Source: a virus
DNA length: 64,000 bases
IMG/VR virus record: IMGVR_UViG_3300011253_000949
Coordinates: 1-64,000 of that record
Strand: one strand, 5' to 3'
This document shows, one piece after another, positions 4,219 to 59,100 of this stretch. Each line of letters begins with the position of its first letter. The stretch's first letter is position 1. The notes under the pieces were generated by a model that ran no database searches, was not told the origin of the DNA, and saw nothing but the letters and a program-made list of their open reading frames with translations. The position numbers and the translations under genes are program-made.

Positions 4219-4560
4219 ATGTCAGATGTAGAGCAGATCGAACTAAGTATGAGCCAAGCAAAGAAACTTATTGAGCGGAAAGACACCCTAAACCGTCTTT
4301 TTGAGCACAAAGATTTCAAAGCCCTGATTGTTGAAGAGTACTTCAACGATGAAGCCGTTCGTCTCGTACATATGATGAGTGATCAGTCCATGGCTGAATA
4401 CCGTGAGCAGATCATCAAAAACATGGATGGCATTTCCACGCTGCGTGAGTGGTTCCGTGTTGTGAAACAGATGGGTGAAGCTGCTGAGAACGAACTGGCC
4501 GAAGCTCAAGAAGAGTACATCGAAGCCCTTGCTGAAGAAAACATGGGTGAGGAGGTATAA
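4219..4560 (+). CDS. conserved head-cluster protein of unknown function (N4 gp58 position)
   Basis: One hundred and thirteen residues, acidic and largely predicted helical (many Glu, Met and Lys; LREWFRVVKQMGEAAENELAEAQEEY near the end). It lies between portal and the acidic scaffold-like gene, the position of N4 gene 58. Strong ribosome site GAGGAT. Function not recognised; a small head-assembly factor is a reasonable guess from position only. Confidence 0.65.
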   Translation: MSDVEQIELSMSQAKKLIERKDTLNRLFEHKDFKALIVEEYFNDEAVRLVHMMSDQSMAEYREQIIKNMDGISTLREWFRVVKQMGEAAENELAEAQEEYIEALAEENMGEEV

Positions 4561-22900: not shown

Positions 22901-24784
22901 ATGAACTCAGATCCAAAAGACGAAAGAGCCATGGGCTTGATCGTTGGATATGCCAAAGCAAACAACAGCCTTGAGAACAACAAACGTCCAAGCGGCCGTG
23001 AAGGCAATGTTGCAAAGTACAACGGCTTGAAAGGCTATGCACCGGCAACAGCTGAGAGCGGTCAGAGCCTGATGGTTGTACCAGACAGCCAAGCAGCAGA
23101 CCTGATCAAAAAAGGCTACACACGGATCGGTGACTATGATGGTGACAGCTCTGAGAACTTCCGTGGACAGCGTGGGTATTACTACTCGTCGGTAGGTGGT
23201 CTGAACACATATCGCCAGGGCATTGCCCAGACAGTGCATGCAACCTGGAAAGGGGTTGATATGCGCAATGGTCAGTCCCGTGTAGGCAACACCGTTGGCA
23301 GTGCCATTGTTGGTTCCAAAGCCCGTCAGGTGAAAAGCACCATAGGACGGCCGCTGAATGGCCTAGCTGCTGGCGAGTACCTCATGCCCATCTTTGACGA
23401 TAAAGGCGCTGTAAGCGGATATCAGCGACCTCTGGCTGCAGATAAGATGGCATTGCTGAAGAAGGACGAGCACATCGGTCGGATGCTGGGGGTATGGACC
23501 GGACGGATTGTGGAGGAGAATGCCGCCGATGGGTTCAACATGGAGCTGCTGAATACCCTCAAAGAGATCCACACAAAGCATAAGCTGGCGGGTCGGGACA
23601 GTGAGTTTGTGAACCTTGCAGATCCTGAGCTGAAAGATCCCGTCTACAAGGATGCGTGGAACACGATGGGATGGAAGATGAAGGAAGATGCAGCGGAGGT
23701 ATTCGGACGGGCCGACTACTTCCCTGTCAGGCGTGACATGATTGATGACGCGTTGGGATACCGTGCTGCATCTATAACGGATCCATGGACAGGGATTACG
23801 CGTTGGAGTCCTAAAACACAGAAGCTTCTGCGGGATACTGCAACGGCGATTATGGGCGTGAACGCCTATAAATATATGAAGATGGCTGAGAATGGGATTG
23901 GGGGCGTTGTCTCTTATGCCAAGACCAACATCATCATTCGATCAGTTGTTGTGATGTATGAGAACATCGTCTCGAACGGACTGCATCTGCTGACACATGG
24001 CATTGGACCGGTGACAATGGCAAAGGCTATGAGAACCAAGTTCTTGGAGATCACCACCTATGTGAAGAACAAAGAAGAGATGCTGTCTCTCAACGTTCAG
24101 CTCTCTGCTGTGATCAACGATGCTTCTAAAGCCAACCCCATCAAGGCACGTTTGATTGCATTGGAAGATGCCAACAACCAGCTGAGCATCAAACCATTGA
24201 TTGACGCAGGGGAGTTCTCCACGATCTCGGAAAGCTTGACCGAAGAGGATCTGGCAGCACGAGATGGTAAGATTGCTGAGCTGGTCGAGAAGGCAGTAGA
24301 CAAGCTGCCAGGAGTGGCAAGAACCATTGGTAAGAATGCCATCATCAGCAAAGACACTGCCCTGTTCAGGGTGTTGAACCGGATGGTTCAGTATGGTGAC
24401 TTTGTAGGCAAAGCAGTCTTGTATGATCACCTGATCGAGAAGCGTGGCAAGACCAAGCAAGAAGCTATGGATACGATCTCAGAAGAGTTCGTGAACTATA
24501 ACCGGTTGCCTGGACGAACCAGAGACGCACTGGAGAGCAATGGTCTGCTGTGGTTCTTCAACTACAAGCTTCGTATCCAGAAGATTGCCATGAACGCTGT
24601 GAGAGAGCGTCCTGTGACAGCCTTGCTGTGGGCTGGAGGGGTAGGACCAGCCATGGACATAGACTCGGTGTTCTCAGGCTCTCTGGGAGGCTCCATTGTG
24701 GATGGTCGGATTGGGTATGCGATTGGACCTGAGATGGGATACAACGGATTGTTCCTGAACCCATGGCTCAACTTGGCAAATTGA
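13964..24784 (+). CDS. giant virion RNA polymerase (N4 gp50-like)
   Basis: 3606 residues; N4's is 3500. Packaged in the virion, injected with DNA, and transcribes early genes from hairpin promoters. Single-subunit T7-family motifs lie in the central third, as in N4: T/DxxGR-like SSNGR at 1505-1509, a motif A candidate EADGVTDGP at 1648-1656, motif B R1779...K1783...Y1791-G (SNSKNPLTVFIYG), and motif C AVFDG with Asp2054. The spacing matches N4 with an offset of about 90-115 residues. A Lys-rich low-complexity linker (KKKKKK, about residue 1050) separates the N-terminal region. A zincin-like HEALH lies at 2331-2335. Last gene of the late operon, facing a bidirectional terminator. Confidence 0.92.
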   Translation: MSELDRIDSDYFSGRLDFGDGRDAPVPTSPVQQKMQTIKDKTSAKKMQMAGDDYFKALAVADQQGNDLGEDSEMVQDFNTLDDLTLMYKYGETAIQSRMNFLNAGREANRVSSLERDWGEVAGDSAIGVAQGVVGMGTGIVQGALVANDALNTGVEWLTGTEFAEPVAPLFAELTAKGNEWANSFKSDRYQEKSKEMALIQSLDAQENQRLYDEDIAKGALGAGFRKFVRDAGDTIGNYAQSPTMVGDIAAQGVGSLAGFGVLAKVMGKAGAVKELVAGGMTKKQALSVVNSGAAKEIVRKNTIAAVPIVNGAVEGGSAASSAQFEIMSKSEEELTGIEEYDAMRADGLTHRQAQKELANTAGQVSGVIGGAAGFVVGKALDPAFEANPMKALKGKGAGNALAASGKTIATETLEEGVTETASTIASNVGQNVAGLDVDPFEGAGEAFATGAIGGKVTAGTVQAPGLAKAALGAAGQGAVKAVGAAVEAGAERGNKAIKAGEDKNRNELGVAASAAAETILDTTPQDTAPDGVESAQTVLSKKITDNYYVSDEADAQLMNAEMSGDGFIKLREQRKAAGLSEKFSQHDVVNVLGSTLMDKKATGVNKQLTAVSLLSAYDEVRKMTSDEAKAAMAELGKDNPTAQDFAKIQKATNELENTAAILEAKLQMQTITQEDLKAWIGYDVAGTAKPDDTQVEFVDLVTRYNPGILTVSQYDQILEQRKSGLNPKSSILMKSLKSTREIVADIQEATQTKAAINESTQGKESNYKPDSKMVSMDVNVEGNRNNSGKSILQHRADIIDAVATGRTKDARTALRDMYEFTRSQINKMIALNTSAQAYDPETKAYKKVRFDAYNPDKGIRYKTDKKQSPFSDPTNSASVVQAMDTAADTKLLVNAYNSLLETYGEQLGKLPKAMAEKPLVAPALDSSMALIALPAPATVSDVLVLEDTNEGASAVASATSTASESVTDKTETSVTNDEGGNVTSTLSLSEANEARREAKFAKEQEAVENTTPTQVTAVPEEATGETAMAAALIAAGLVTEDTTPAQTKPKKKKKKAKKAEQKKLIEQEIQDAKPEEAESAAETLADLMPDLETDTDGNNWFLKSFRRLKDSKLLTLSNPFAWIKENYDALGVDQKVEFDDQQKEVLRDFTENQAPKIMQLVNGYANDALNATRKTRDKSKMGNDIPASGVKVIPKKWLQDLQSTGDVLTYNNALPLNLGSRDEKDVFSLDERVAQAAVMATTEWMLQNRSVPSPYLNDEEIAKRLGIRQKTVTQEMRDAVNGGMFIQRAIDEISRKITNLMGVKALKGSSISYTQGIPRALAVNMLAAFEEAQFINISQPLEYVDSKGEKGSYASVSIRNTQYTEWMADSFVGMEDMFTSAFLPSSFKARIIGSPPDPASVARTQMRNPLVKLSPEERKAMARLEATPFRANAPLWAMAQALGKDRMAKLRGFVEVNEKTMNKVDRKSIEGKNRSILRGLNGVAGYMDEAGGTDKPFFFKWGMSSNGRLFQQGPITPQADKYAREMMTATNAVIDMNDPTYETMFWLTVAQSIDQKVHKQDVEVSVHNAMEAMKDPDGLKPAVDLMMKYQTEGTLTEEEMDTMMSAFSNKASPEFTDKVFHAVNVVARLNNASESDKAAFSTSLSLEADGVTDGPVNAVVHMSTGEFKAHQLKIMAMGGLFFSEDRMSLNDYWKINNVDLYTEATKETENQLSAEMTALRNSGTPDEVSHAEKTMRVLHAFLPDFNFAEKAEDDAVIDNENLPFKDEVESDGEFKLGRSNSKNPLTVFIYGAGLSGISDKITSTVTGEIYKRMSEIATQLEDGTITSWDQHEIFVDNPQLVSDLNDVFSATVEEGDWEKVTRSDLRLGDMFRKPVEAFFRTDWLDNLQSSISRFYTTALITAIDRVTGGLQENMQIMQTTASVQAYMFEQTFNDLLAQKNEERKANTEKGRGNVQLSEEEIQAVFEETMKVAPIYETDAQSYHISGGTQYQSKTRIATNFKGKLSSGMSHVAPSEPSVKISPYLTIGTGDGRMVVNIYNKADGSLDTSLAVFDGIELAADNIYTGSTQVNESVYDAWMNGNNFQTMLEGYDRFLMNVDYDKMEPMQKKLNKSFGKQKGEVVTEADFAALRVTLQAKADEVQARKNTMTKFKIWVDHMAGANSPYGKVDEDLTGITHAKDSYDTSALEAQMNVIFEEELAKITADRTTASQTEPVQPANEGLQTMIERVGSPLYKREVHEVSGKVMKKFFYKSKDQGYNNEQSQVFWKVMNRPENKDLDDWRFYFGSAEELNRLKADVFKDLNQKGIGNGQAFAGTKVAFIANASPETMLHEALHAMTAAHLQNYYTDSSNTADYVKDAIVRLEDLLKEFRGLDLQFEPTNVQVAARELMDSINIAEAESLDARAEVMGEFLSWTLSNQKLIGLTKKVKVYGPLHKLAYKVLTAIKEMFGMSKSFKGTDMFSNIRFNTEILTGTPAQFGADIVQEQRFTASEPVAHVESAYVEKLTQTLKANLLDSGLGPLDAARENTERQLQLERNATKAVNQVNARGDWGMNQREAQAFKAVHATMMTGYGLNAAAMREANNVYVHAVKNLKVDDFLIDPDTATVAERKTAKRQLKTLTGGTGIRKDANNRSDLLATFVALSQVSEPMKLALGRLTIPSKTSKIEKSVDGVIDGLADTLTNYLSELPMSKGSTQQNAAQAMNMLSATLTTINKENDMLAKVDGQAWMMRANDLIVEKAGKLTKKASEAVKAKIAASSTGPKKTGLQVANLVLSFGSAKDSDTAQEFLVSALNNTPRFESLKKIYSDLRGMTQENASLMRLINPVKSVVDAMRQEYRERIPEEFAKQFSRKLKKEEWVGMYHGILKTDLTALGRKETLDLIKDPSSIQARIAAEEGNLGSKNVQLYKEKSKALAHYMVTGEVTSTNLLPNAEAIARLLNERNVIGSTNSGLVRSIDRLVSLYAFEMTDQASKDMMTELMNSDPKDERAMGLIVGYAKANNSLENNKRPSGREGNVAKYNGLKGYAPATAESGQSLMVVPDSQAADLIKKGYTRIGDYDGDSSENFRGQRGYYYSSVGGLNTYRQGIAQTVHATWKGVDMRNGQSRVGNTVGSAIVGSKARQVKSTIGRPLNGLAAGEYLMPIFDDKGAVSGYQRPLAADKMALLKKDEHIGRMLGVWTGRIVEENAADGFNMELLNTLKEIHTKHKLAGRDSEFVNLADPELKDPVYKDAWNTMGWKMKEDAAEVFGRADYFPVRRDMIDDALGYRAASITDPWTGITRWSPKTQKLLRDTATAIMGVNAYKYMKMAENGIGGVVSYAKTNIIIRSVVVMYENIVSNGLHLLTHGIGPVTMAKAMRTKFLEITTYVKNKEEMLSLNVQLSAVINDASKANPIKARLIALEDANNQLSIKPLIDAGEFSTISESLTEEDLAARDGKIAELVEKAVDKLPGVARTIGKNAIISKDTALFRVLNRMVQYGDFVGKAVLYDHLIEKRGKTKQEAMDTISEEFVNYNRLPGRTRDALESNGLLWFFNYKLRIQKIAMNAVRERPVTALLWAGGVGPAMDIDSVFSGSLGGSIVDGRIGYAIGPEMGYNGLFLNPWLNLAN

Positions 24785-40523: not shown

Positions 40524-42491
40524 TTAAGTTACGTGATTTTCATTTGGTACAGTCTTACGGAATTGAACCCATCCTGAGAGGTTGCCGTGAAGATGCTCAT
40601 TTTCCCAAGCTTCTCCTCCATACAAACGATCAGGTGTAGCTTGATGCTCCAGTGGAGAGGCATGCACACGGTCAGAGCTGACCAGCATGTCATACCGCTC
40701 AAGCTCGCGCTCATAGGATGCATCACCGTCAAAAGGCTTGTAGGAGATACGTGCACAACGAGCAGCTGAGATCTTCTGAAGAACGGGCATAACTTGGAAA
40801 GTATTAGCCCGAACTCCTGGAGCTAGTTTTACCATTGATGCAGCTCCATACCAGTCATCTTGAGTGATGTAAGGCAAGTGCCATTCCCCTGGCTCCAGGA
40901 TCTGTACTTCAGCATCGTCGATGGCTTGTTTCACCAGACGTGCCAGATCCTGAAGGTGTGGTTCAGCGTCAGCATGATCACGGAGCCACAGGAAGTTATC
41001 CCATTCACATGAAGTGATCAGTGTGTCGATCCAAGAGAAGGGCTCCAGCAGACGGTTGGGGATCTGCTTGTGATAGCCAGCTTCCATGTAGGCTTCAGCA
41101 ACTTCCACTGCTGTATTACGGGCTACGAGCCATGCTTCTTTTTGAGTGTAAAAACATTCAGCTGGATCCATGGAAGGATCAGGAAGATAGATTTCTTCAT
41201 CACAATCTTCAGACGCTTGCATGCCCTTCTGGTTCTTGCCCCAGTGCCAAGGGATGAACGGCATGGAGGTGCATTCCAGCAGCATGGTCTTGACCGGTAC
41301 AGCACGTGAGCTGCGAGCATTGCGTGAGTTGTGAACAACTACACCATCGGCAAAGAAGTTCGGAAACTCTCCAGCGATTTCGAGATCATAAGTATCGCAT
41401 TCGCCTTCGCTTAAAATGCTATCGACCAGCGTGCCGACTGATCCAAGGGGAACTCCAATCTGCCAGCCCTGCGTCTCATGCAGATCCTTATGCGCGTCGG
41501 GATTGACGGCGATCACATTATCCAGGTCGAAGGCCAGGTCAGGACGCTCATGCCGTGGTTTGACGTGATGCAGATGGAATGACCGTTCCAGCAATTCTCC
41601 AGTAATGGCGCATTTGTGATACTGTCGCTGCGCAATAGTGCTGCGGTTCTGACGTGTCCAGGTCTGAACCCATTGACCGTCAATCTTATTGTGTCTGTTG
41701 GGGTCAGCATTTTCCCCTGCGCCGTAACGATAAGTGATGATCTGATCCTGACCTGGAACAATATCTTCAATACGCTTCCAGCCAGAGTCAGTGAAGACGC
41801 GGTGATCTTTTGAGCCACAGACAGAGAATGACCCTGCCGAGACGCGAAAAACCTCTTTCTTTCCTGAGACAATCACGTCCTTGACAGTAGACGTTTGCAC
41901 TTCTCCAGTGCGTTCGTTGATCTGCCTGATTTGCATTTTGGACAAACGAGACTTCAATGAAAAGCTACGATTTCCGGTGCTTTCACGCCAGTCCATCCAG
42001 TAGCGCCCATAAGCGCACCACTTTCCTCCCCGCTTGTGAGCGCCGTAAATTTTACCTTTGCGACACAGCGCGTTGAGATTACTCGTAACGCTCATACCAA
42101 GTTCAGTCGCAATCTCTTTGGCCGTGTAAGTCTTGGCGGCATCAAGATGATCAAGAGTCTTACCATTGTGACGAGAAGTTGCGCCCTTTGCGGCACCGTT
42201 GATCCATTTGTCAGCGAACTCACGTAGGCTCATGGAATGAACACGCCGGGTATTTTTGCCGTGCTGACCACCGGGAAGATCAAAGTCGAGCATGGCATCA
42301 CCTGCGAGACAGAACACCCGATGGGTCATGACTTCACCATGAATGATCCGCGGATAGCGCATACGGATGGTGTAGAGGGGTGGTCCTTGGTCATCGCCAT
42401 CTACATTGACAGCACGTGAGGCCAGGATCACTTCGACCTGCATCTGAGGCTGGCCTGAATGCGTGAAGGTCTTGTAGGTCATCATATTCAT
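40524..42491 (-). CDS. thyX: flavin-dependent thymidylate synthase ThyX with intein
   Basis: Six hundred and fifty-five residues as translated; removal of a 328-residue intein leaves a 327-residue ThyX. The signature RHRxxSxNxxSxR appears after splicing as THRVF + SRNARSSRA. The rest (ITSCEWDNFLWLR, ISAARCARISY, DRVHASPLEHQATP) is ThyX. It makes dTMP from dUMP using FADH2 and methylene-tetrahydrofolate, supplying DNA precursors in concert with the neighbouring dCTP deaminase. ATG has GAGGAA upstream; first bases overlap the winged-helix gene stop (ATGA). Confidence 0.9.
   Translation of the reverse strand: MNMMTYKTFTHSGQPQMQVEVILASRAVNVDGDDQGPPLYTIRMRYPRIIHGEVMTHRVFCLAGDAMLDFDLPGGQHGKNTRRVHSMSLREFADKWINGAAKGATSRHNGKTLDHLDAAKTYTAKEIATELGMSVTSNLNALCRKGKIYGAHKRGGKWCAYGRYWMDWRESTGNRSFSLKSRLSKMQIRQINERTGEVQTSTVKDVIVSGKKEVFRVSAGSFSVCGSKDHRVFTDSGWKRIEDIVPGQDQIITYRYGAGENADPNRHNKIDGQWVQTWTRQNRSTIAQRQYHKCAITGELLERSFHLHHVKPRHERPDLAFDLDNVIAVNPDAHKDLHETQGWQIGVPLGSVGTLVDSILSEGECDTYDLEIAGEFPNFFADGVVVHNSRNARSSRAVPVKTMLLECTSMPFIPWHWGKNQKGMQASEDCDEEIYLPDPSMDPAECFYTQKEAWLVARNTAVEVAEAYMEAGYHKQIPNRLLEPFSWIDTLITSCEWDNFLWLRDHADAEPHLQDLARLVKQAIDDAEVQILEPGEWHLPYITQDDWYGAASMVKLAPGVRANTFQVMPVLQKISAARCARISYKPFDGDASYERELERYDMLVSSDRVHASPLEHQATPDRLYGGEAWENEHLHGNLSGWVQFRKTVPNENHVT
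41328..42311 (-). mobile_element. HNH-containing intein in ThyX
   Basis: Residues Cys61 to Asn388 of the precursor. Block A starts CLAGDAMLDF; block B is SFSVCGSKDHRVFT; the C-terminal end is DLEIAGEFPNFFADGVVVHN followed by Ser+1. A helix-turn-helix-like insert (TYTAKEIATELGMS) and an HNH nuclease core (CAITGELLERSFHLHHVKPR...DNVIAVNPDAHKDLHE) lie inside. Bases here are visibly richer in CpG than the flanking extein, consistent with recent transfer. Confidence 0.9.
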
Positions 42492-49221: not shown

Positions 49222-52200
49222 TTAGCTGAGTGCATAATCGGCATTAACGATCTGCTGAGAGATGTCACCAAACTTAGTGACCACCGTGTCCTCACCCACA
49301 ATCTGACTTACGATAGACTGAAGCAGGTTGCTCTGTGCGAGTTCACTGAGGATCGTGTTGTATTGCTTACGCAGGTCATTCCCGTAGTTGGGATGAACGC
49401 GGAAACCATTTGTTAAACGAGACGTTACTCTCGCCCTTCAGATTCCATGATTGTAGTGGAATCCATACTTAGCTTCAGCAGCTTGGCGAGCTGCTTTTGC
49501 ATCATCTATGTTGTCATATGAGCCGAGAGCGATTTGCTTACGGTTCACCATGATGTAGGCGTGATACTTCCCAGAGGGAAGGACACGAACACCAGTGACA
49601 CCAGACGTGTTGCTTTTCTTTTGGCTCATGTTGAGTTGGTTTAGCCTGCTAGATACTTCTCGCAGATTGCTCCAGCGGTTATTGGATCGATCGTGGTCAA
49701 GATGATCCACTTGATCAGGCCAAACACCTATTTGCATAAGCCAGATGATACGATGTGCCAGATAGTCTTTTCCGCCTATAGAAACAGATAAGTAACCTTG
49801 ACTGTGTAGATAAGTCGCAAGGTCTCCTTTGGCTCCTTTAATCGTATCAAGTTTGTGACACAGCTCACCAGAGGCAGGGGTATACTCATAAAGGTTGAGT
49901 AGGCTTGTCTGGGTGAACTCACGAAGATTGACGATACGGTGCGTACATTTTTTACATAGATGTCCGATCCGGCTTTTCTTCGCATCATATAAACCAACCT
50001 CAAAGTCAGAATGGCATTGAGCACATTCACACAAAACTTTGAATTTTGTTAGTTTCATCTTGATCTGCCACGTTTGCAACATTGTATGTACCTTGATTAA
50101 GCCATGCACGTTGTTTTTGTGCTTAGCCTAACCTTGGCAAGAAGTCCACGGCTTTCACTGTGGTATCGGACTATATCATCACCCTTCTGCAGAGCAGTTA
50201 GGGGCGAGGCGCTTCGGAGGGGACTTCCCTCTCCTACTCCCTTGCGGGATAGTCTCTGAACCTTCAATGCAGTTTGGACCTGCAAAGCTTGGCTGCTGAT
50301 TGGCATAGGATTTCTCCCTTAGCTTTCCAGCAATTCACCTCGTTCTTCGACAGGGATTTCTCCCTGAAGGACCGTTAATTCAGTCATGGATGGAGAGAAC
50401 AGGGAAGGGGTGCTTTGGCATGTTGTCGAGCAAGTCAAAGAGTTCTTCCAAGGGAGCATAGTGGATTGAATCTTCGTCGATGTAGTCCACGATCCGAGCA
50501 GAAAGGAAGCCTGTCTCGTGGAAGTTCTTTGCCAGGGTCCGAACCATTGAGATGTTTGGGCTGATCTTATCTGCAGGACGTGAGCTGTGAGACAGAGCAA
50601 TAGCTGCAAAGCACAAACCCATAGCCTTTACCATTTGGCTCCGATCATAGGTACAGCGCCGTGAGACTTCACGAACGATCATACCATCAATGGAGTGGGT
50701 GATGTTGGCCGGCAGTGACTTGCCGGTTTCAGTGGGTGTGTTGATCTTGGTGACAACATCGTAGGGACGTTCCAAGAAGTGAACTGTCTCATGTTGAAAA
50801 TCCATGACTTTGGTTTTGACATGGAAGTTGTCAGGAAGAGTCCACTCATAGACCAGAGCTTCAGGATTCCACAGAGCCAAGAGAGCTTCGTTGAGTTGCC
50901 AGATGCCAGGGGCTTCTTCGTTCATGACTTGCAAGAACATGTCGAGCATTTCCCCTTCACCAAATACCTCTTTAGGGACAGCCTTAGAGCCATACAATGC
51001 GTTTTGTTCAACAAGGGTTCGTTACTCCCTTGCCCGTCCACTTGCTCATGTGTGGACCGCTACATGTTACCATGCAGACCAGACTATATCTTCACCCTCT
51101 TACGAGGGGTTCTGCGCTTCGAGCCACTTGGCTCTACTCCCTCACGGGATAGTCGTTGCACGTTCCGATACTTCAACCACTCTACGACACATCTCAATAA
51201 AATCGAGAGTTGTCATATCACCCTTGGCTCTGTTTGCGGCCCAAGATAGCCACTGTATGTTGCCTTTTACATATCCCAATTCAGGATATATTTTGTCCAA
51301 TGAAGGACAAAGAGGATGTTTCTTCTCAATCACAAATGGGCAACCTGTGGCAGCACATTTGAGGTCTTGAAGATTGATTAGCTCGTAGAGATAGTCCTCA
51401 TCAATATCAGGGGTCACCTGATTGTATTTGCTGGCTCTGCTTTTGGCTTCAGTGATCCTCCCTCGTATGAGAGACATCAGCTTTCTATCCTCTGGCGGAA
51501 CCTTCTTAAGTTTACCTGTCCCTCGATACCCTTGACCATGTTTCTCACTGTAGGCTTTTCTATATGCACGAGCTTTTGCTGCGTTACATGGCTTACAGTA
51601 CGAATGGTAACTTTGGGACGTCGGGTGTTTGAAGTTGTCAGACTTCTTCCAATTTTCATTTAATTTGGCTTTGGTAAACTCTTGAAGAGGTTTCGTCTCA
51701 CCGCATTCTTTGCAGCTACGAGTGGTTGATTGATCCATAGAAGCATTCCTTAATTGCTTATACGGATTTGTATTGGCTTCGCTCAGGATTGTCCACAGCT
51801 TGACCTGTTGGGAGGTTCCCTGAATTCACAGAATTGCGTATCACCAGTTACCCGGTGAGTGACCCCTTTATGTTAAGGTCATGATAGCTTGCTTCACATC
51901 TGCTCGATCGATCTTAGACACGGTTCCTAGGCGTGCACACATGATCTCATAGATGTTGGTGTAGAGATCCTCCCGATCACCTGTGCTGATGACATTGCAC
52001 AGAGAGGCTGACTTGCTGCATCCAACCAGGATAGCCAGAATTTGAGCCCCAGAGGCTGTGGCATCAAGGCTGATGGGGTAGGAGATAGGCTTGCCCTGTG
52101 AGGCTGTTCTGTAGGCCTGTACGCCAGCGTAGTAGAGGGCTGGTTCTTCTGCTTGATCAATGAGATTTTTAAGCAGTGGTTCATTGGTCTGGAACCATGA

Positions 52201-52287
52201 GATACGATCAGTCCAGCTTTCTTTGTCGAGACCAAAGTTACCAGCAATGTCGATCATCAGATATTCTGTAGGTGTGAAAGTTTGCAT
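49222..52287 (-). CDS. middle RNA polymerase subunit RNAP2 (N4 gp16-like), interrupted by two group I introns
   Basis: Join on the minus strand of 52287..51876, 50999..50382 and 49406..49222 gives 1215 nt and 404 residues, the size of N4 gp16. It supplies the catalytic motifs of the two-subunit polymerase: motif A SLDATASG (Asp75), motif B R128-x3-K132...SLYGSK with Tyr140, and motif C SIHDCF with Asp343. Intron 1 cuts inside motif B after Thr137; intron 2 cuts right after the catalytic Asp343. Both junctions obey the group I rule (exon ends in U, intron ends in G) and restore the frame exactly. Ribosome site TAGGAGCC. Confidence 0.9.
49407..50381 (-). ncRNA. group I intron 2 in RNAP2 (at motif C)
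   Basis: 975 nt. Core elements on the minus strand include GAGACTATCCC...GGGAGTAGG and GATATAGTCC (P3/P7 partners) about 150-220 bases from the 5' end, as in the T4 td family. Exon ends CATGACT, intron ends AAATG, restoring HDCF. Carries an HNH gene in its 3' part. Confidence 0.85.
49438..50082 (-). CDS. HNH homing endonuclease with AP2 domain (intron 2)
   Basis: About 214 residues from ATG 50082 (AAGG upstream; ATG 50109 is an alternative). N-terminal CxxC pairs (CECAQC, CKKC), an HNH core [37 protein letters not shown] and a C-terminal AP2-like DNA-binding region ([18 protein letters not shown]...). It would cut intron-less RNAP2 alleles and spread the intron. Confidence 0.85.
   Translation of the reverse strand: MLQTWQIKMKLTKFKVLCECAQCHSDFEVGLYDAKKSRIGHLCKKCTHRIVNLREFTQTSLLNLYEYTPASGELCHKLDTIKGAKGDLATYLHSQGYLSVSIGGKDYLAHRIIWLMQIGVWPDQVDHLDHDRSNNRWSNLREVSSRLNQLNMSQKKSNTSGVTGVRVLPSGKYHAYIMVNRKQIALGSYDNIDDAKAARQAAEAKYGFHYNHGI
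51000..51875 (-). ncRNA. group I intron 1 in RNAP2 (at motif B)
   Basis: 876 nt. The 3' part has a td-like core: CAACGACTATCCC, GGGAGTAGAGCC and GGTGAAGATATAGTCTGG. The upstream exon ends in T after ATGACC and the intron ends AACG, giving MT-SLYGSK. It carries an endonuclease ORF whose end runs into the core. Confidence 0.85.
51142..51738 (-). CDS. zinc-binding homing endonuclease (intron 1)
   Basis: One hundred and ninety-eight residues. CxxC motif [13 protein letters not shown], then YHSYCKPCN, and a C-terminal CAATGCPF...[32 protein letters not shown], the conserved part of a His-Me-finger (HNH-type) endonuclease family with SLDRI...GY..GN. Its stop codon lies inside the intron core, near the P7 sequence. 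Confidence 0.75.
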   Translation of the reverse strand: MDQSTTRSCKECGETKPLQEFTKAKLNENWKKSDNFKHPTSQSYHSYCKPCNAAKARAYRKAYSEKHGQGYRGTGKLKKVPPEDRKLMSLIRGRITEAKSRASKYNQVTPDIDEDYLYELINLQDLKCAATGCPFVIEKKHPLCPSLDKIYPELGYVKGNIQWLSWAANRAKGDMTTLDFIEMCRRVVEVSERATTIP

Positions 52288-53824: not shown

Positions 53825-53875
53825 TCACTCCTTGTTCAATGTTTCTTCTTCAGCAAACTGGATACAGGCTTTGTT
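53825..53875 (-). pseudogene. duplicate 3' end of the RNAP1 gene
   Basis: Seventeen codons read NKACIQFAEEETLNKE then TGA, matching the true end of RNAP1 (NKACVEFADAEPLNKE, stop TAA at 54405). It lies directly after the HNH stop (overlap of two bases) with no start of its own. So the HNH gene sits between two versions of the RNAP1 tail. Confidence 0.85.
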
Positions 53876-54368
53876 ATCTTCCGTGGTTGGGATGGTAGTC
53901 ATAGAGTTGCTCCATTTCTTTCCGGGCTTCACAGGCTAGGCGAAACGCTTCTTCTTCTCCGTATTTGGAGATCGAGAAAGTTTTGATTTTCTGCTTGCCG
54001 TCTTTGTCATGGCATGTGGCGCGCCACATACTAATTTTTTGATTGCCTCGGCGTGTGGTTTCCCAGTGACTTACGCCTTGGACCCCAGAGGCATTATCCT
54101 GACGTTTGGCGGCATTTCTTCTTTGTCCCTTGAGAGGAATACAACGAAGGTTTTCAAAACGGTTATCTGTTCGGATACCATTAATGTGATCGATCTGATG
54201 TCCCTTTGGAATGGGGCCATATTTCTGTTCCCATAGCCATCTATGCAGGTACATCACGCGGTTATTCCGTGAGATACGTATGTACCCGTTTTTACCGTTT
54301 GCAGCGGATTCTGGATAATGCTGGGCAAGCTCTTCAGCAGAGCCTGCCCATTTGTTTTTGTCAGTCAT
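53874..54368 (-). CDS. free-standing HNH/AP2 endonuclease at the RNAP1 end
   Basis: One hundred and sixty-four residues. YLHRWLWEQKYGPIPKGHQIDHINGIRTDNRFENLRCI is the HNH core; SGVQGVSHWETTRRGNQKI... is an AP2-type domain. Ribosome site AAGGAGATC. Flanked by two versions of the RNAP1 3' end, so its insertion brought a substitute gene end. Confidence 0.85.
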   Translation of the reverse strand: MTDKNKWAGSAEELAQHYPESAANGKNGYIRISRNNRVMYLHRWLWEQKYGPIPKGHQIDHINGIRTDNRFENLRCIPLKGQRRNAAKRQDNASGVQGVSHWETTRRGNQKISMWRATCHDKDGKQKIKTFSISKYGEEEAFRLACEARKEMEQLYDYHPNHGR

Positions 54369-54404: not shown

Positions 54405-55229
54405 TTATTCTTTGTTCAATGGCTCTGCATCAGCAAATTCCACACATGCTTTATTCCAGTCTGATCCCTGATACGAAATGTGATAGCCTTGGCTGTATGT
54501 CCGGCCGCGTTTGTCGTATTTGTGTGTGAGCCAGAAGCGATCGCCTTGAGCCAGCAATGCTTTGATCACACCACGAGAGGATTTGTCGTACTTCTCAAAT
54601 GCTTTGACACGTTTGCGGAAGTCTTCTTTGCTTTCACCATCTTTGGGTTTGTCGAGGTTCTTCCATTGGTGTTGTACAAACGAAACCACATCTGTGTTCA
54701 GGCTTAGAGGAATACGATTCATCCGGTTGATGTGATCCAGACAGACATCTTCAGCATGGTGATTGTCTTTGAGGATGATCGAACCTGAGATGGTTTGATA
54801 TCCCGTCTGCAGGTTGTTTCGTACCGGTACTGGTTCTTCGATCATAGGCAGTGGGTACTGAAGCATTGCCATACGTGTTTTGACATCTTGGGTGATGTCA
54901 TAGGTCATCACGATGGTTTGGGTCATTTCATCCCAATCTACGAAGTCTTTCTCCGCGGCGATCAGGATCATGTCTGCGCATGCCTGTGCAGGGTTCTCTT
55001 CCAACTCGAAGTGTTTCTTCAAGATGGCTACGAGGACAGGGATGCCGGCACGTTTGTGCAGCACGAGTTGGACAAGGAGATCCAATCCAAAGGAGATGGG
55101 GATCTCTGCTTCGATGAGAGCATCAGAGAAGTTAGCCTGGATGAACTCATATTTGATGAGGGACATTGCTTGGTGCTTTGAGAACAGCTGTTCCATTGCA
55201 ATCTGTGAAGTGAATTCGAGATCAGTCAT
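54405..55229 (-). CDS. middle RNA polymerase subunit RNAP1 (N4 gp15-like)
   Basis: Two hundred and seventy-four residues, close to N4 gp15. Holds the T/DxxGR motif as DKRGR (239-243) in HKYDKRGRTYSQGYHISYQG, while the catalytic motifs A, B and C are in RNAP2; the two together equal one T7-type polymerase. It transcribes middle (replication) genes. Overlaps the SLOG gene stop (ATGA). Its last 16 codons were probably replaced by an HNH-linked copy. Confidence 0.88.
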   Translation of the reverse strand: MTDLEFTSQIAMEQLFSKHQAMSLIKYEFIQANFSDALIEAEIPISFGLDLLVQLVLHKRAGIPVLVAILKKHFELEENPAQACADMILIAAEKDFVDWDEMTQTIVMTYDITQDVKTRMAMLQYPLPMIEEPVPVRNNLQTGYQTISGSIILKDNHHAEDVCLDHINRMNRIPLSLNTDVVSFVQHQWKNLDKPKDGESKEDFRKRVKAFEKYDKSSRGVIKALLAQGDRFWLTHKYDKRGRTYSQGYHISYQGSDWNKACVEFADAEPLNKE

Positions 55230-55735
55230 ACGAGCTCCATGATTTGTGCTTGGGCATTCTCGAGCGTGAGTGCTCCAAGGTTGATGACGGGGATGTTGTT
55301 GGCGAGAGCAATGTTGATTGCCAGTGCTGTGCCTCCCACAAGCTTTCCGTTAGGTGTCCAACACACGACAAAGTTGGTGGGTGACTGGAGTGAGACTCCC
55401 AGGATCTGATGCACATTGCGTGCCATCAGCTTTCGGCCGGCCGTGTAGAGCTTGGGCCAGTTAGGATGGAATGATTCAGCAATCGCATAAGCTTCTTGCT
55501 TTGGTTCAAGCTTGCTGTGGTGACCATTGAAAGAGGGCCAAGGAAGGTAGATCTCACGCCGTCCATTGTACTCTGTGGCTCCCCTCTCAAAGGCTGCGTC
55601 AGCGCCCTCTGCAGCGCCTGAGCGTAGGGTGAAGTCCTGTTGAGCCATGAAGCCTGCAAGGGCTTCCATAGCCTCTAAAATGACGGGTGGAGTCTTTCGA
55701 GATCCAATACCTGTGTAGGCACGATATTCATACAT
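55226..55735 (-). CDS. SLOG/DprA-like nucleotide-binding protein
   Basis: One hundred and sixty-nine residues: YTGIGSRKTP...LRSGAAEGADAAFERGA...GRREIYLPWP, then VCWTPNGKLVGGTALAINIA. This is the SLOG Rossmann superfamily (DprA, LOG, YspA), which binds nucleotides or derivatives. Role in phages is unproven; sensing or DNA-handling are options. First gene downstream of a probable vRNAP promoter (55834). Confidence 0.75.
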   Translation of the reverse strand: MYEYRAYTGIGSRKTPPVILEAMEALAGFMAQQDFTLRSGAAEGADAAFERGATEYNGRREIYLPWPSFNGHHSKLEPKQEAYAIAESFHPNWPKLYTAGRKLMARNVHQILGVSLQSPTNFVVCWTPNGKLVGGTALAINIALANNIPVINLGALTLENAQAQIMELV

Positions 55736-55789
55736 AGCAGCTCCATGGCTTTAGGGTGTGTCCAGTGAAAACAGGGGTTTTTTGGGGAG

Positions 55790-55899
55790 TTAGGTTATAG
55801 GTAATAAAGTTCGGTCAAATTTGACCAATCTACGGGGCTGGAAGCCCCTGAATACCTAAAGACACCTAATAACCTAGAGTAACTACTGAGTAGGTTACT
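55790..55899 (-). promoter_or_regulatory. early control region: vRNAP-type hairpin promoter, palindrome and inverted repeats
   Basis: Hairpin GGGGCT-GGA-AGCCCC at 55834-55848 has the three-base GGA loop of N4 vRNAP promoters with + strand as template, so it would fire leftward. Beside it: the 14-bp palindrome GGTCAAATTTGACC (55814-55827), an inverted pair built on AGGTTAT...ATAACCT (about 55792 and 55868), and stem GAGTAAC/GTTACTC (55875-55898). Confidence 0.65.
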
Positions 55900-55924
55900 C
55901 ATACTATCTAAGTAGAAATGTAGT

Positions 55925-55952
55925 AGCCCACCCGGATCACTCCGGGCAGGCT
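55925..55952 (-). terminator. terminator-like hairpin downstream of the 55959 gene
   Basis: Stem of 12 positions with two mismatches and TCAC loop (AGCC..CCCGGA / TCCGGG..GGCT), just 3' of the stop. No long T-run, so perhaps partial. Confidence 0.6.
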
Positions 55953-55958
55953 CTTGGT

Positions 55959-56372
55959 TTACGCTGACTTCTTGGCGAATCCGAGGCTGTTCAACGTGTG
56001 CATGTGAGGATTATCCCCAGGTGCACCAGCTGCTACAGCATCAGCGACACGGCGCATCTGGATTTGTAGGTCATTGATGATGAACTCCTCGCCTGGAGCC
56101 ATCTCACCAGCAGCGTCTTGCAGCTGCTTCAACAGTGCATTCTTGGCCTGCACCAGCTGATTGTACTCGACATTGCTGCCACGTACTTTGGCTTCCAGCA
56201 TCGTATCAATGCCGAGACCCAGTGGCAGAGAGACAAACATCTCTTCGCCGGTATGTGGATCAGTAGAAGTGAAACCAACGTTCATCCATACAACAGGCTG
56301 TGCCTTGCTGTTGGCTGCTGTCTCTTCAACAGGTGACTTTGGTGCGGTGATGATGTTGCGTTCGATTGCCAT
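55959..56372 (-). CDS. early protein, unknown
   Basis: One hundred and thirty-seven residues: MAIERNIITAPKSPVEETAA..., beta part WMNVGFTSTDPHTGEEMFVSLPLGLGID, helix KNALLKQLQDAAGEM, and IINDLQIQMRRVADAV. Ribosome site AGGAGCC. Expressed from the small-gene early region; no family recognised. Confidence 0.6.
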   Translation of the reverse strand: MAIERNIITAPKSPVEETAANSKAQPVVWMNVGFTSTDPHTGEEMFVSLPLGLGIDTMLEAKVRGSNVEYNQLVQAKNALLKQLQDAAGEMAPGEEFIINDLQIQMRRVADAVAAGAPGDNPHMHTLNSLGFAKKSA

Positions 56373-56542
56373 TGTTTTGGGCTCCTATAACAATGATTAT
56401 TGGTTCGCTACACAGGATGCATAGCGAGTCCGTTTGGGTCGTAAGTTGTAGAGTGATTGTCGATCAGGGCAGATAATCTACCCCAAAGAAACAACTGTTG
56501 GTACGCTAACACAGTTTGTTAGATATGCTACCATCAGTAGTA

Positions 56543-56662
56543 TTATTTTTGCTGAGTGAGGGTCAGCAACAGGTCAGAGTAATCTGCCGGTTTGATGGGT
56601 TTGAGGCCCATCTGAGGATCACTGAGCTTACGCTTCAGATAGATGTAAGGATAAGTTTTCAT
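56543..56662 (-). CDS. small early protein
   Basis: Thirty-nine residues: MKTYPYIYLKRKLSDPQMGL... ending LLLTLTQQK. AAAGG eight bases upstream. Too short for most gene finders. Unknown function; small early proteins of this kind often target host enzymes. Confidence 0.55.
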   Translation of the reverse strand: MKTYPYIYLKRKLSDPQMGLKPIKPADYSDLLLTLTQQK

Positions 56663-56673
56663 TGGTTTACCTT

Positions 56674-56790
56674 TCAGGTGAGGGACACTGCGATGAACGC
56701 AGTGCAGATGGTTGCCACAACAGTAAAGATCAGGAGATCTTCTTTATCCGCGGCAAGATGTTTGCACAGAAATGCAATGAATAAGGCCAT
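56674..56790 (-). CDS. small early membrane peptide
   Basis: Thirty-eight residues: MALFIAFLCKHLAADKEDLL then FTVVATICTAFIAVSLT, one clear transmembrane helix. Perfect ribosome site AAAGGAGGT. First gene after the promoter at 56935. Confidence 0.55.
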   Translation of the reverse strand: MALFIAFLCKHLAADKEDLLIFTVVATICTAFIAVSLT

Positions 56791-56934
56791 GGAGACCTCC
56801 TTTCTGACTGATGTGAGGGGTGTGAAGCCCAGCTACAGATGATTCTGTAACTGAGCTGTGACCGGTACAACGAGCATCACCGGTTGAAGCCTTGTGCGTT
56901 TAGCTCACAAGGAGAGCTGGACTGTTTGGCAACA

Positions 56935-56956
56935 ATCCACAGGCTGCGGAGCAGCC
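56935..56956 (-). promoter_or_regulatory. vRNAP-type early promoter hairpin
   Basis: On the + strand ATCC + four bases + GGCTGC-GGA-GCAGCC (56942-56956). Same loop and same ATCC-to-hairpin spacing as the N4 P2 promoter template strand, so leftward transcription into the 56790 gene. Confidence 0.8.
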
Positions 56957-57025
56957 CTTAGTTATTACCAAAACAGTAGTTTCAGTCAGTCACGTAGGTA
57001 TCCTCTGGATGTAGAGTCAGATGGA

Positions 57026-57214
57026 TCATGATGGTTCTCCTTGGCACCAGATGTGTCGATCAAGATCGGCTTGATGCTCCTCTATCCATTCAAGGGCCTG
57101 ATCGCACTCACCCATCGAGCCGTAGAGGCTCAACGGGAAAGCACGTGTTTCGACATCAATGTCAGAAGCTGTAGGAGCTACCAACATGAAGATAATGACT
57201 GCGATACCGTTCAT
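57026..57214 (-). CDS. small secreted or membrane early protein
   Basis: Sixty-two residues beginning MNGIAVIIFMLVAPTASDID, a signal-like start, then charged part with Cys (GECDQALEWIEEHQ...HIWCQGEPS). GGAGAAC upstream. Could be exported; function unknown. Coupled to the gene above (ATGA). Confidence 0.55.
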   Translation of the reverse strand: MNGIAVIIFMLVAPTASDIDVETRAFPLSLYGSMGECDQALEWIEEHQADLDRHIWCQGEPS

Positions 57215-57447
57215 GATTTGTTCTCCATGTTGGTTTTGATACGTTGAACAGTCTCACGCTGAACAGTTGTCAGCTTTGTAGGACCGTTGTTGTCCATCAG
57301 TGAGTAGATGATCTCACATAGGTCATTGCCACGTTCGATCTCCTGACGGATCATCTGCTCCTGAAACAAGAGCAGGTTATCCATCTGGTCCTCTTTGGTT
57401 CGAGGATCCATGTTGGGCTTACGTGGTGCGGTGAATTTGAGAGTCAT
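57211..57447 (-). CDS. small early protein
   Basis: Seventy-eight residues from ATG 57447 (AAAGGA upstream): MTLKFTAPRKPNMDPRTKED..., then a helical LLLFQEQMIRQEIERG. No family recognised. Confidence 0.55.
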   Translation of the reverse strand: MTLKFTAPRKPNMDPRTKEDQMDNLLLFQEQMIRQEIERGNDLCEIIYSLMDNNGPTKLTTVQRETVQRIKTNMENKS

Positions 57448-57481
57448 GATGATTATCCTTTCAGGAGTTTGAGATTTGGGG

Positions 57482-57721
57482 TTAGGTGCGAACACCACCA
57501 GTAGAAGCAGATAGTTTTGCTGCTATACTGGCGACACGTTCCATACGGAGCTCAAGCTCAAGGTGACGGTCCATCATAGCTTCGGACAGCTCCTCGTCGT
57601 GTTCTCTGAGAGCCTCTGTACCAACCTCGGCACAATTGATCATTTGCTCAAAGAGACGTGTCTCTATGACGTCGATACGGTTCCAGTTCGGGTTGCGATA
57701 GTTCATTTGTGAGTAGGCCAT
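57482..57721 (-). CDS. small helical early protein
   Basis: Seventy-nine residues from ATG 57721 (AAAGGAG upstream): MAYSQMNYRNPNWNRIDVIE..., helical with MMDRHLELELRMERVASIAA. It is the first gene after the promoter at 57784. Unknown function. Confidence 0.6.
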   Translation of the reverse strand: MAYSQMNYRNPNWNRIDVIETRLFEQMINCAEVGTEALREHDEELSEAMMDRHLELELRMERVASIAAKLSASTGGVRT

Positions 57722-57783
57722 GTTGGTTCTCCTTTGAGAGGGTGAAATGAGTTTTGCTTTTGAAGAGTGATTTCTCCACAAGC

Positions 57784-57805
57784 ATCCAACGGCTACGGAG
57801 TAGCC
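57784..57805 (-). promoter_or_regulatory. vRNAP-type early promoter hairpin
   Basis: ATCC, four bases, then GGCTAC-GGA-GTAGCC (57791-57805) on the + strand, firing leftward toward the gene at 57721. Confidence 0.8.
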
Positions 57806-57958
57806 CTCACGTTGGAGAACAGGGATTTGCAGCACCCACTACCTAAATGGTGGAGTAGGGGCTGTATGGAGCTGTTTTGAGGGTGTGTGAGGATGCTGAA
57901 AGGGTTCAGGATGTGTTGTGGGATGAGGGAGTGAAGTGACAGGATTTGGGGAAACAGC

Positions 57959-58006
57959 AGTTAACAGAGATAAACCGTAGTTAAAACAGTAGTTAACCGT
58001 AGTTAA
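57959..58006. repeat. cluster of AGTTAA repeats
   Basis: AGTTAA occurs at 57959, 57979, 57991 and 58001, the last three as GTAGTTAA, at 20, 12 and 10 base steps (about helical turns). It lies in the 420-base gene-free stretch 57722-58143, between a promoter and a terminator. Possibly a protein-binding site array. Confidence 0.5.
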
Positions 58007-58100
58007 CAGCGTGACATCCAGTAATTTGATCAACATCCCTCATGAGTGATAGATTTTGTTTATACCCCTCCTGCACCTCTATCGGAGATAGTGTCGTTGT

Positions 58101-58137
58101 GTAAAAAAGAAGAGCCACACTCCCGAAGGAGTGCAGC
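58101..58137 (-). terminator. intrinsic terminator after the 58144 gene
   Basis: On the minus strand: GCTGCACTCC-TTCG-GGAGTGTGGC (nearly perfect 10-bp stem, TTCG tetraloop), followed by TCTTCTTTTTT. Confidence 0.85.
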
Positions 58138-58143
58138 ATTGAT

Positions 58144-58470
58144 TTAGAGTTCAGCAAGAGCGGCTTGGTACTCAGCCATGATGGCATCGTAGCGCTGCTT
58201 GAGAGGGGCATTGGACTCGAGCTCTGCGTCGAGCTTGAGCATTGCGCGTGAACGCTCTGCTACACGCTCTGAGAGCTTAGAGGAGATACGCTCCTTGGCG
58301 TCGAGCTTGTTGGTGATCTTGGACTCGGTAGCCCAAGTCTTGAGGTTGTCCTCCATGACATCGACAGCAATGGATGCTGAGCCGATTGTTCTGCTGATGA
58401 CGTTAGCAGTGGTGGAGATGACTGACAGTGAGTCAGATGCAGTGGTGCGTACGTTGACGAGGATAGACAT
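58144..58470 (-). CDS. early protein, coiled-coil
   Basis: One hundred and eight residues: MSILVNVRTTASDSLSVIST..., then long helical region SKITNKLDAKERISSKLSERVAERSRAM... typical of a coiled coil. AGGAGC upstream; the promoter at 58504 lies 42 bases upstream. Followed by a strong terminator, so a one-gene early unit. Confidence 0.65.
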   Translation of the reverse strand: MSILVNVRTTASDSLSVISTTANVISRTIGSASIAVDVMEDNLKTWATESKITNKLDAKERISSKLSERVAERSRAMLKLDAELESNAPLKQRYDAIMAEYQAALAEL

Positions 58471-58503
58471 GATGAGCTCCTAGCTAGGGATGGACCGTGA
58501 TTG

Positions 58504-58524
58504 ATCCAAAGAGTGCGGAGCACT
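58504..58524 (-). promoter_or_regulatory. vRNAP-type early promoter hairpin (best match)
   Basis: ATCC AAAG then AGTGC-GGA-GCACT (58512-58524) on the + strand. N4 P2 template has ATCC AAAA then GAAGC-GGA-GCTTC; the geometry is identical. Leftward, toward the gene at 58470. Confidence 0.85.
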
Positions 58525-58669
58525 GGTGAAGGGGGTAGGTACATCTAGGGTGAGAAATGAAGGTGGGGGGGGGTATTCTTTCTGTGTGTATCCACAGTGT
58601 AAGAGAGAGGCTTCAGACACCTCTAGGGTACTTTTCTGAGACCCTACCACACAAAAAATTCTAAAAATA

Positions 58670-58945
58670 TTATGAGGGATTTTTGACCCATGAAACTATC
58701 AGACAAACGTCGATCCTACGGCCATCTTGTGTGGTGACAGGGGTGATGATGTGCTGTGTGTCTGCGGTATCTTCCCTGGCTTTGAATCCTTGGCTCCAGA
58801 CCAGTTCTCCTAGGGAATAAGGCTCATCTATCCAGTCACCTGAGTCTATGCTCGCGCGTGTGGCATATAGAGGTAACAGTCTGTTTTGTTTAATATCTCT
58901 AAGTACTCTTCCTTTAGAGAAGCTTAGTATATTAGAACCTTTCAT
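58670..58945 (-). CDS. first leftward early protein
   Basis: Ninety-one residues: MKGSNILSFSKGRVLRDIKQ..., basic N-terminal half, then mixed. It is the gene nearest the divergent gap and probably the earliest in the leftward set. Followed by tandem stem-loops (58600-58650) and a G9 tract (58565). No GGA-loop promoter seen before it. No family recognised. Confidence 0.55.
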   Translation of the reverse strand: MKGSNILSFSKGRVLRDIKQNRLLPLYATRASIDSGDWIDEPYSLGELVWSQGFKAREDTADTQHIITPVTTQDGRRIDVCLIVSWVKNPS

Positions 58946-58974
58946 ACCTACATCTCCTATACATATATTTGATG

Positions 58975-59023
58975 TAATATCCCGACTAGGAAGTACGTAG
59001 TACTTCCGTAGGAAGGGATATTA
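58975..59023. repeat. nested palindrome at the divergence point
   Basis: Outer arms TAATATCCC (58975) and GGGATATTA (59015); inner perfect stem GGAAGTAC-GTA-GTACTTCC (58989-59007). It lies between the divergent early and late units, where N4-like genomes have their ends. Could be an operator, a promoter hairpin with an altered loop, or an end/processing site. Confidence 0.6.
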
Positions 59024-59094
59024 CTTATACAAGATAAACTAGATAGTACAAGAAAACCTATTGACTACCTAAAGCTTGTAAACATATCTAAGGG

Positions 59095-59100
59095 TATAAT
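59095..59100 (+). promoter_or_regulatory. -10 element of a likely late promoter
   Basis: TATAAT, 30 bases before the first late gene, with no well-spaced -35 (TTGACT is 28 bases away). Weak -35 is what N4 late promoters, driven by host sigma-70 polymerase plus SSB, look like. Confidence 0.45.

Follow-up and report, generated by a model that had tools for sequence, protein, structure and literature searches.

Recognition by a polymerase of a hairpin extruded from double-stranded DNA has been studied best in phage N4. Hairpin promoters for the N4 virion RNA polymerase (vRNAP) are established, with residue R904 of the enzyme contacting -8G and D901 contacting -9C/-10G (PMC4496689). Hairpin vRNAP promoters with 3-nt loops have been proposed for LIT1, LUZ7 and PEV2 (PMC3715699), and an 'early promoter' is annotated in the record of phage KP8 (NC_048700). 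Promoters and hairpins go unmentioned in the family-wide accounts PMC7650795 and PMC10654107. Here, four GGA-loop hairpins (at 58512, 57791, 56942 and 55834, termed P1 to P4) are described in the early region of a 64,000-nucleotide stretch of viral DNA (i.e. the window), which comprises positions 1 to 64,000 of the 66,613-base linear IMG/VR virus record IMGVR_UViG_3300011253_000949. Sequence comparisons indicate that these hairpins are very probably early promoters of the N4 vRNAP type.

Results

Sequence and register of the hairpins

The hairpins were confirmed by reading the sequence and by a scan for all perfect hairpins with 3-nt loops. The register was set by placing the loop centre at -11, as in N4; sequences are given for the template (+) strand and the first hyphen follows +1. 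P1 (58507-58524, promoter on the - strand) contains the hairpin AGTGC-GGA-GCACT at 58512-58524 and reads TGATTGATCC-AAAG-AGTGC-GGA-GCACT, with a loop centre at 58518 and a predicted +1 at 58507 for a leftward RNA. P2 (57787-57805, - strand) contains GGCTAC-GGA-GTAGCC at 57791-57805 and reads ACAAGCATCC-AACG-GCTAC-GGA-GTAGC, with a loop centre at 57798 and a predicted +1 at 57787. P3 (56938-56956, - strand) contains GGCTGC-GGA-GCAGCC at 56942-56956 and reads GCAACAATCC-ACAG-GCTGC-GGA-GCAGC, with a loop centre at 56949 and a predicted +1 at 56938. P4 (55830-55848, - strand) contains GGGGCT-GGA-AGCCCC at 55834-55848 and reads TTGACCAATC-TACG-GGGCT-GGA-AGCCC around a loop centre at 55841. All four sites share a 3-nt G-purine-A loop on the template strand, with the central purine at -11, and a stem within the 5-7 bp of N4. 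A template CC at +1/+2 and a C-G loop-closing pair (i.e. -9C) are present in P1, P2 and P3; P4 has C at +1 (position 55830 under N4 spacing), T at +2 and a T-A closing pair. Three sites are strong and the 55834 site is a weaker member of the set.

A preliminary description of this DNA had reported these four hairpins with their GGA loops, + strand location and leftward orientation, all of which were reproduced. Its observation that ATCC, four nucleotides and a 5-bp stem follow one another in three of the sites also held, this being the same register as that of N4 P2 when recovered with the same script. The fourth site had been described as having ATCT and one base less of spacing, which is one of two equivalent readings, as AATC-TACG-GGGCT-GGA under N4 spacing places C at +1 and differs only at +2 (T for C).

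Number, strand and position

Five GGA-loop hairpins with stems of at least 5 bp were observed in 55701-59100, all on the + strand, as compared to a mean of 0.0975 (maximum 2) in 2000 dinucleotide shuffles. ATCC in register was found three times, never in 2000 shuffles of the region and at a mean of 0.005 in 200 dinucleotide shuffles of the whole record. No stem-5 GGA hairpin was seen on the opposite strand anywhere in the 66.6-kb record. The only further + strand examples (26739 and 52747) are inside predicted open reading frames (ORFs) and lack both a C at +1 and ATCC. A record-wide search for perfect 5-bp stems with a GRA loop and an in-register CC returned no match beyond the early-region sites. 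The preliminary description had named an equal abundance of such hairpins inside genes or on the opposite strand as speaking against its proposal, and this pattern was thus not seen. Application of the script to N4 recovered three hairpins that fit the known P1, P2 and P3 before gp1, gp2 and gp15, i.e. a GAA-loop hairpin at 96, TTCATCC-AAAA-GAAGC-GGA-GCTTC at 565 and TTACC-AAAA-GCTGC-GGA-GCAGC at 4554. This recovery, together with a number, strand and register far above those of the shuffles, supports the assignment of the window hairpins as promoters.

Two further candidates were rejected. The fifth early-region GGA hairpin (CTATC-GGA-GATAG, 58079-58091; 58074-58091 with its flank, - strand), which was absent from the preliminary description, has no CC (lacking +2C), carries T at -8, a base found at this position in 0% of family sites, and keeps its stem but has the loop GAT in the related contig L015; from these features it is probably not a vRNAP promoter. 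Host sigma-70 promoters were the other candidate driver: the three consensus matches in the region are all on the other strand and are fewer than in shuffles. A search for sigma-70-like sites on the leftward strand of the early region found none, which favours transcription from the hairpins.

Conservation in relatives and across the family

The early region is common to three contigs, L013, L014 and L015. L013, at 99.9% identity to the window in this region, could represent the same virus; identities are 93% for L014 and 88% for L015. P1 is kept in all three contigs, with loss of the outermost pair only in L014. P2 of L015 has GCTGC/GCAGC in place of GCTAC/GTAGC, a double change that preserves the stem. 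In L014, homology to the window ends just past +1 of P2 and different small genes lie beyond, while the hairpin is retained. Both the compensatory change and this retention beside different genes argue for a promoter function. As a separate observation, the small-gene module of L014 has been replaced (L014:3600-4235) with a breakpoint just past +1, as if promoters acted as exchange boundaries.

For a family-wide survey, gp15-type RNAPII subunits were aligned and, from this alignment, 80 contigs were fetched with flanks; 75 contigs were retained after removal of near-duplicates and the near-twin of the window. Strict sites were defined by a stem of at least 5 bp, a GGA or GAA loop and CC at +2/+1. 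In the flanks upstream of RNAPII, the template strand had 63 strict sites and the other strand 1, whereas the downstream counts were 1 on one strand and 2 on the other (549 and 667 kb scanned). The loop letters, CC and five pairs were selection criteria and hence are not evidence, but unselected positions of the 63 sites were also biased, with C at -9 in 98%, G or C at -8 in 79% and 16%, A at -1 in 81%, A at -4 in 73% and G at -5 in 75%. Both the strand and position counts and these biases support the promoter assignment. P1 and P3 conform to this profile, whereas P2 deviates from it at -8 (A, 5%), P4 at +2 and -9, and the 58079 hairpin at +2 and -8.

The giant polymerase and position -8

A giant vRNAP of 3606 amino acids, cysteine-free and homologous to the solved N4 vRNAP, is encoded at 13964-24784 on the + strand. 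The RNAP domain is 29% identical to that of N4, and all five of the catalytic residues tested (R424, D559, K670, Y678 and D951 in mini-vRNAP numbering) are kept. This homology and conservation are a further argument that the hairpins serve as vRNAP promoters, and the intact residues and retained promoters suggest in turn that the polymerase is likely to be working. When 35 RNAP domains were placed on a tree, the window vRNAP formed a lone long branch with an identity of at most 29% to any other row (ort11); a viral_contigs search with this protein alone yielded one relative, at 98%. The combination of a giant vRNAP of ~3500 amino acids with a two-subunit RNAPII, in an N4-type set and order of genes, agrees with the definition of the Schitoviridae (PMC7650795). 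The window also contains homologues of gp15 and gp16, a large terminase, DNA polymerase, primase and helicase. It is a deep, unclassified lineage of the Schitoviridae, known here from an uncultivated record.

Serine occupies the place of R904 in the window vRNAP, and position -8 of P1-P3 is G, A and G, respectively. Among aligned vRNAPs, all 36 promoters detected in the 15 genomes with R904 have -8G, as compared to 13 of 25 in the 14 genomes where R904 is absent (Fisher P = 3e-6). The tree shows just three changes at R904, few enough for common descent to explain this pattern, and an independent-pairs test had too few pairs to reach significance; proven coevolution of R904 and -8G was rejected on these grounds and the relationship is retained as a suggestion. 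The survey frequencies (79% G and 16% C) indicate that -8G is not family-wide. It is conceivable, at somewhat short of an even chance, that the hairpin code has diversified and that lineages lacking R904, the window included, read -8 differently or not at all; the family would then hold, with this same tentative standing, polymerase-promoter pairs of changed specificity. Variation at -8 where R904 is missing offers a natural series on how the enzyme reads the hairpin. The alignment of the -11 recognition element (K114, R119 and W129) differs between runs and no claim is drawn from it.

Weighing of alternative explanations

Several observations weigh against the assignment of the hairpins as vRNAP promoters. 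The residues with which the N4 enzyme reads the stem, D901 and R904, are not conserved in the window vRNAP; P4 lacks +2C and -9C; P2 of L015 has G at +2; and only 30 of the 75 surveyed contigs contain at least one strict site. The remaining contigs may have other spacings or imperfect stems, or the region may be absent from them. Many template-strand GRA hairpins were seen in JA-1 (L067), pYD6-A (L065) and Presley (L071) in which CC or CCA lies at a greater distance from the stem than it does in N4, and these may constitute another spacing class of vRNAP promoter.

The deviations of P4 leave a substantial but minority probability for an explanation in which vRNAP promoter function is confined to P1-P3, the 55834 site being either an unrelated G+C-rich hairpin or an element for RNA processing or termination, with RNAPII expressed by read-through from P3. 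The missing +2C and -9C closing pair favour this explanation, given the 98% frequency of C at -9 in the family, and the available L014 and L015 sequence lacks a homologous stretch in which conservation could be compared. However, the site has the right loop, a 6-bp stem and a C at +1, is intergenic and on the right strand, and lies ahead of the DprA-like and RNAPII genes in the way that N4 P3 lies ahead of gp15. On the leftward strand it has no T tract after it, and T at -9 also occurs in one other surveyed site (L109). It is very improbable that the hairpins are instead terminators or other RNA elements of leftward transcripts. Their intergenic location and ability to form in RNA would fit such a role, but the leftward strand shows no T run after any of the four, a terminator scan instead identified one after the first gene, and a fixed-distance CC with a fixed GRA loop on one strand is unexpected for terminators. 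Least probable of all, the hairpins could be shared boundaries for small-gene-module exchange or binding sites for host factors, as the L014 breakpoint might suggest, but this leaves unexplained why CC and the spacer are fixed, why one strand is favoured, why the sites match the mapped N4 promoters and why they are confined family-wide to the early region.

Assignment as vRNAP promoters is thus supported by register, position, strand, intact catalytic residues, three related contigs and a family survey with controls, and the four sites are predicted on these sequence grounds to be the early promoter set.

Early genes and the left genome end

The first early gene (58144-58470, - strand; 108 amino acids, phrog_5020) has an ATG 37 nt from the predicted P1 start, preceded by TAGGAG, and is followed by a terminator-like hairpin with a TTCG loop and T-rich tail (58114-58137, - strand), a match to the consensus only. 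The first ORF downstream of P2 (57482-57718, - strand; 78 amino acids) has AAGGAG before its ATG, and a search for a family match to it found none. Downstream of P3 is a phrog_4099 gene (55959-56372, - strand; 137 amino acids), with intervening ORFs of 38 and 39 amino acids that have Shine-Dalgarno-like sequences and ATGs at 56790 and 56662. P4 is followed by a DprA-like gene (55226-55735, - strand; phrog_768, E = 9e-54) and then the N4 gp15-type RNAPII subunit (54405-55229, - strand; phrog_2166, E = 1e-94), which is 44% identical to N4 gp15. The preliminary statement that all four hairpins point into small genes is therefore accurate as to leftward direction and loose as to the genes, since the 55834 site leads to these two. 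An N4-like order, in which left-end hairpins are followed by a gp15 homologue, is consistent with promoter function.

Genes run rightward from 59131 (phrog_2109, then the large terminase), such that the contig probably spans the joint of the two genome ends. A G9/C9 tract (58565-58573, C9 on the leftward strand) is conserved in L013, L014 and L015. C7-C9 tracts occur 3-36 bp from the left end in most genomes of the panel, among them N4, KP8, LIT1, LUZ7, Ea9-2, Y38, Ebordelon, JWAlpha and EE36phi1, and by analogy the left end would be near 58576-58608, with the P1 loop centre about 60-90 bp from it. Gene order and the C tract thereby place the hairpins at what is probably the first-injected end, before the early genes and RNAPII, the exact end being an estimate. 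Several panel genomes have TACCCC(A/C) shortly before P1, for which the window counterpart is TACCTACCCCC. The C9 tract may be a packaging or terminal-repeat end mark, and a perfect inverted repeat, GGAAGTAC-GTA-GTACTTCC, occupies 58985-59012, in the interval that separates the early region from the rightward terminase genes.

The gp16-type RNAPII subunit gene (49225-52287, - strand) is in three pieces (51877-52287, 50344-51000 and 49225-49404), split by two group I intron-like inserts that match Rfam Intron_gpI: one match, at 50146-50391, is above the cut-off at 76 bits, and the other, at 51060-51294, falls below it at 38 bits. Each insert contains an endonuclease-like ORF (HNH at 49438-50109; endonuclease VII-like at 51142-51738), and JWAlpha and HN02 are interrupted at the place of the first insert (N4 residue 141/142). 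A gene for an HNH and AP2-domain endonuclease (53874-54368, - strand) lies between the two RNAPII subunit genes. Elsewhere, a 655-amino-acid protein (40524-42491, - strand) matches thymidylate synthase only over residues 387-652 and has a weak HNH endonuclease match at 277-342, so that it may carry an insert, such as an intein, or be a fusion.

Discussion

A scheme for early transcription can be proposed in which extrusion, dependence on gyrase and single-stranded DNA-binding protein, vRNAP binding, start sites and timing are taken from N4 biochemistry (PMC4496689), while the DNA analysed directly provides the hairpin sequences, the non-random number of sites, the strand, position and register that they occupy, their conservation in relatives, the conserved catalytic residues and the gene order. 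The left end, near 58.6 kb, would enter the cell first and be supercoiled by host gyrase, upon which the short GGA-loop hairpins would extrude. The co-injected 3606-amino-acid vRNAP would bind the template-strand hairpin and begin RNA synthesis at the CC of the template, which lies 11 positions from the centre of the loop, giving 5'-GG transcripts that run leftward from 58507, 57787 and 56938 and, less surely, 55830. P1-P3 would drive the small early genes, the first transcript reaching its ATG after 37 nt and meeting the terminator-like hairpin past the gene, and P4 would probably drive the DprA-like gene together with the RNA polymerase of the middle phase. Retention of the hairpin signal at the same register and genome position, alongside a vRNAP only 29% identical to that of N4, suggests that the mechanism is old in the Schitoviridae, and the template consensus CC-N4-N3-S-C-GRA provides a simple marker for early promoters in uncultivated members.

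The window resembles N4 in its 5-7-bp stems, G-purine-A loops and distance of 11 positions between loop centre and template CC, and in the location of the sites on the template strand near the left end, ahead of the first genes and RNAPII; the stem core of N4 P3, GCTGC-GGA-GCAGC, is identical to that of the 56942 site. Unlike N4, in which all three promoters have -8G, the window has G, A and G in P1-P3 and C at 55834, its spacers are AAAG, AACG, ACAG and TACG where N4 has AAAA or ATAA, there is a fourth site, and both R904 and D901 have been lost from its vRNAP. Klebsiella phage KP8 also has four GGA hairpins, of which that at 1233 (CATCATCC-AAAG-GCTGC-GGA-GCAGC-CC) is nearly the same as the 56942 site and L014 P2, but all four KP8 sites have -8G and its vRNAP has R904. 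Template-strand GGA-loop hairpins were also detected by the present scan in the genomes of the Pseudomonas phages LIT1 and LUZ7; unlike P1-P3 of the window, these hairpins (CGTAC-GGA-GTACG type) lack CC at +1/+2. With promoters established in N4, annotated in KP8 and proposed for LIT1, LUZ7 and PEV2, the window sites are a further example of a known mechanism in a deep lineage, and the survey consensus is an extension of that mechanism and not a new one.

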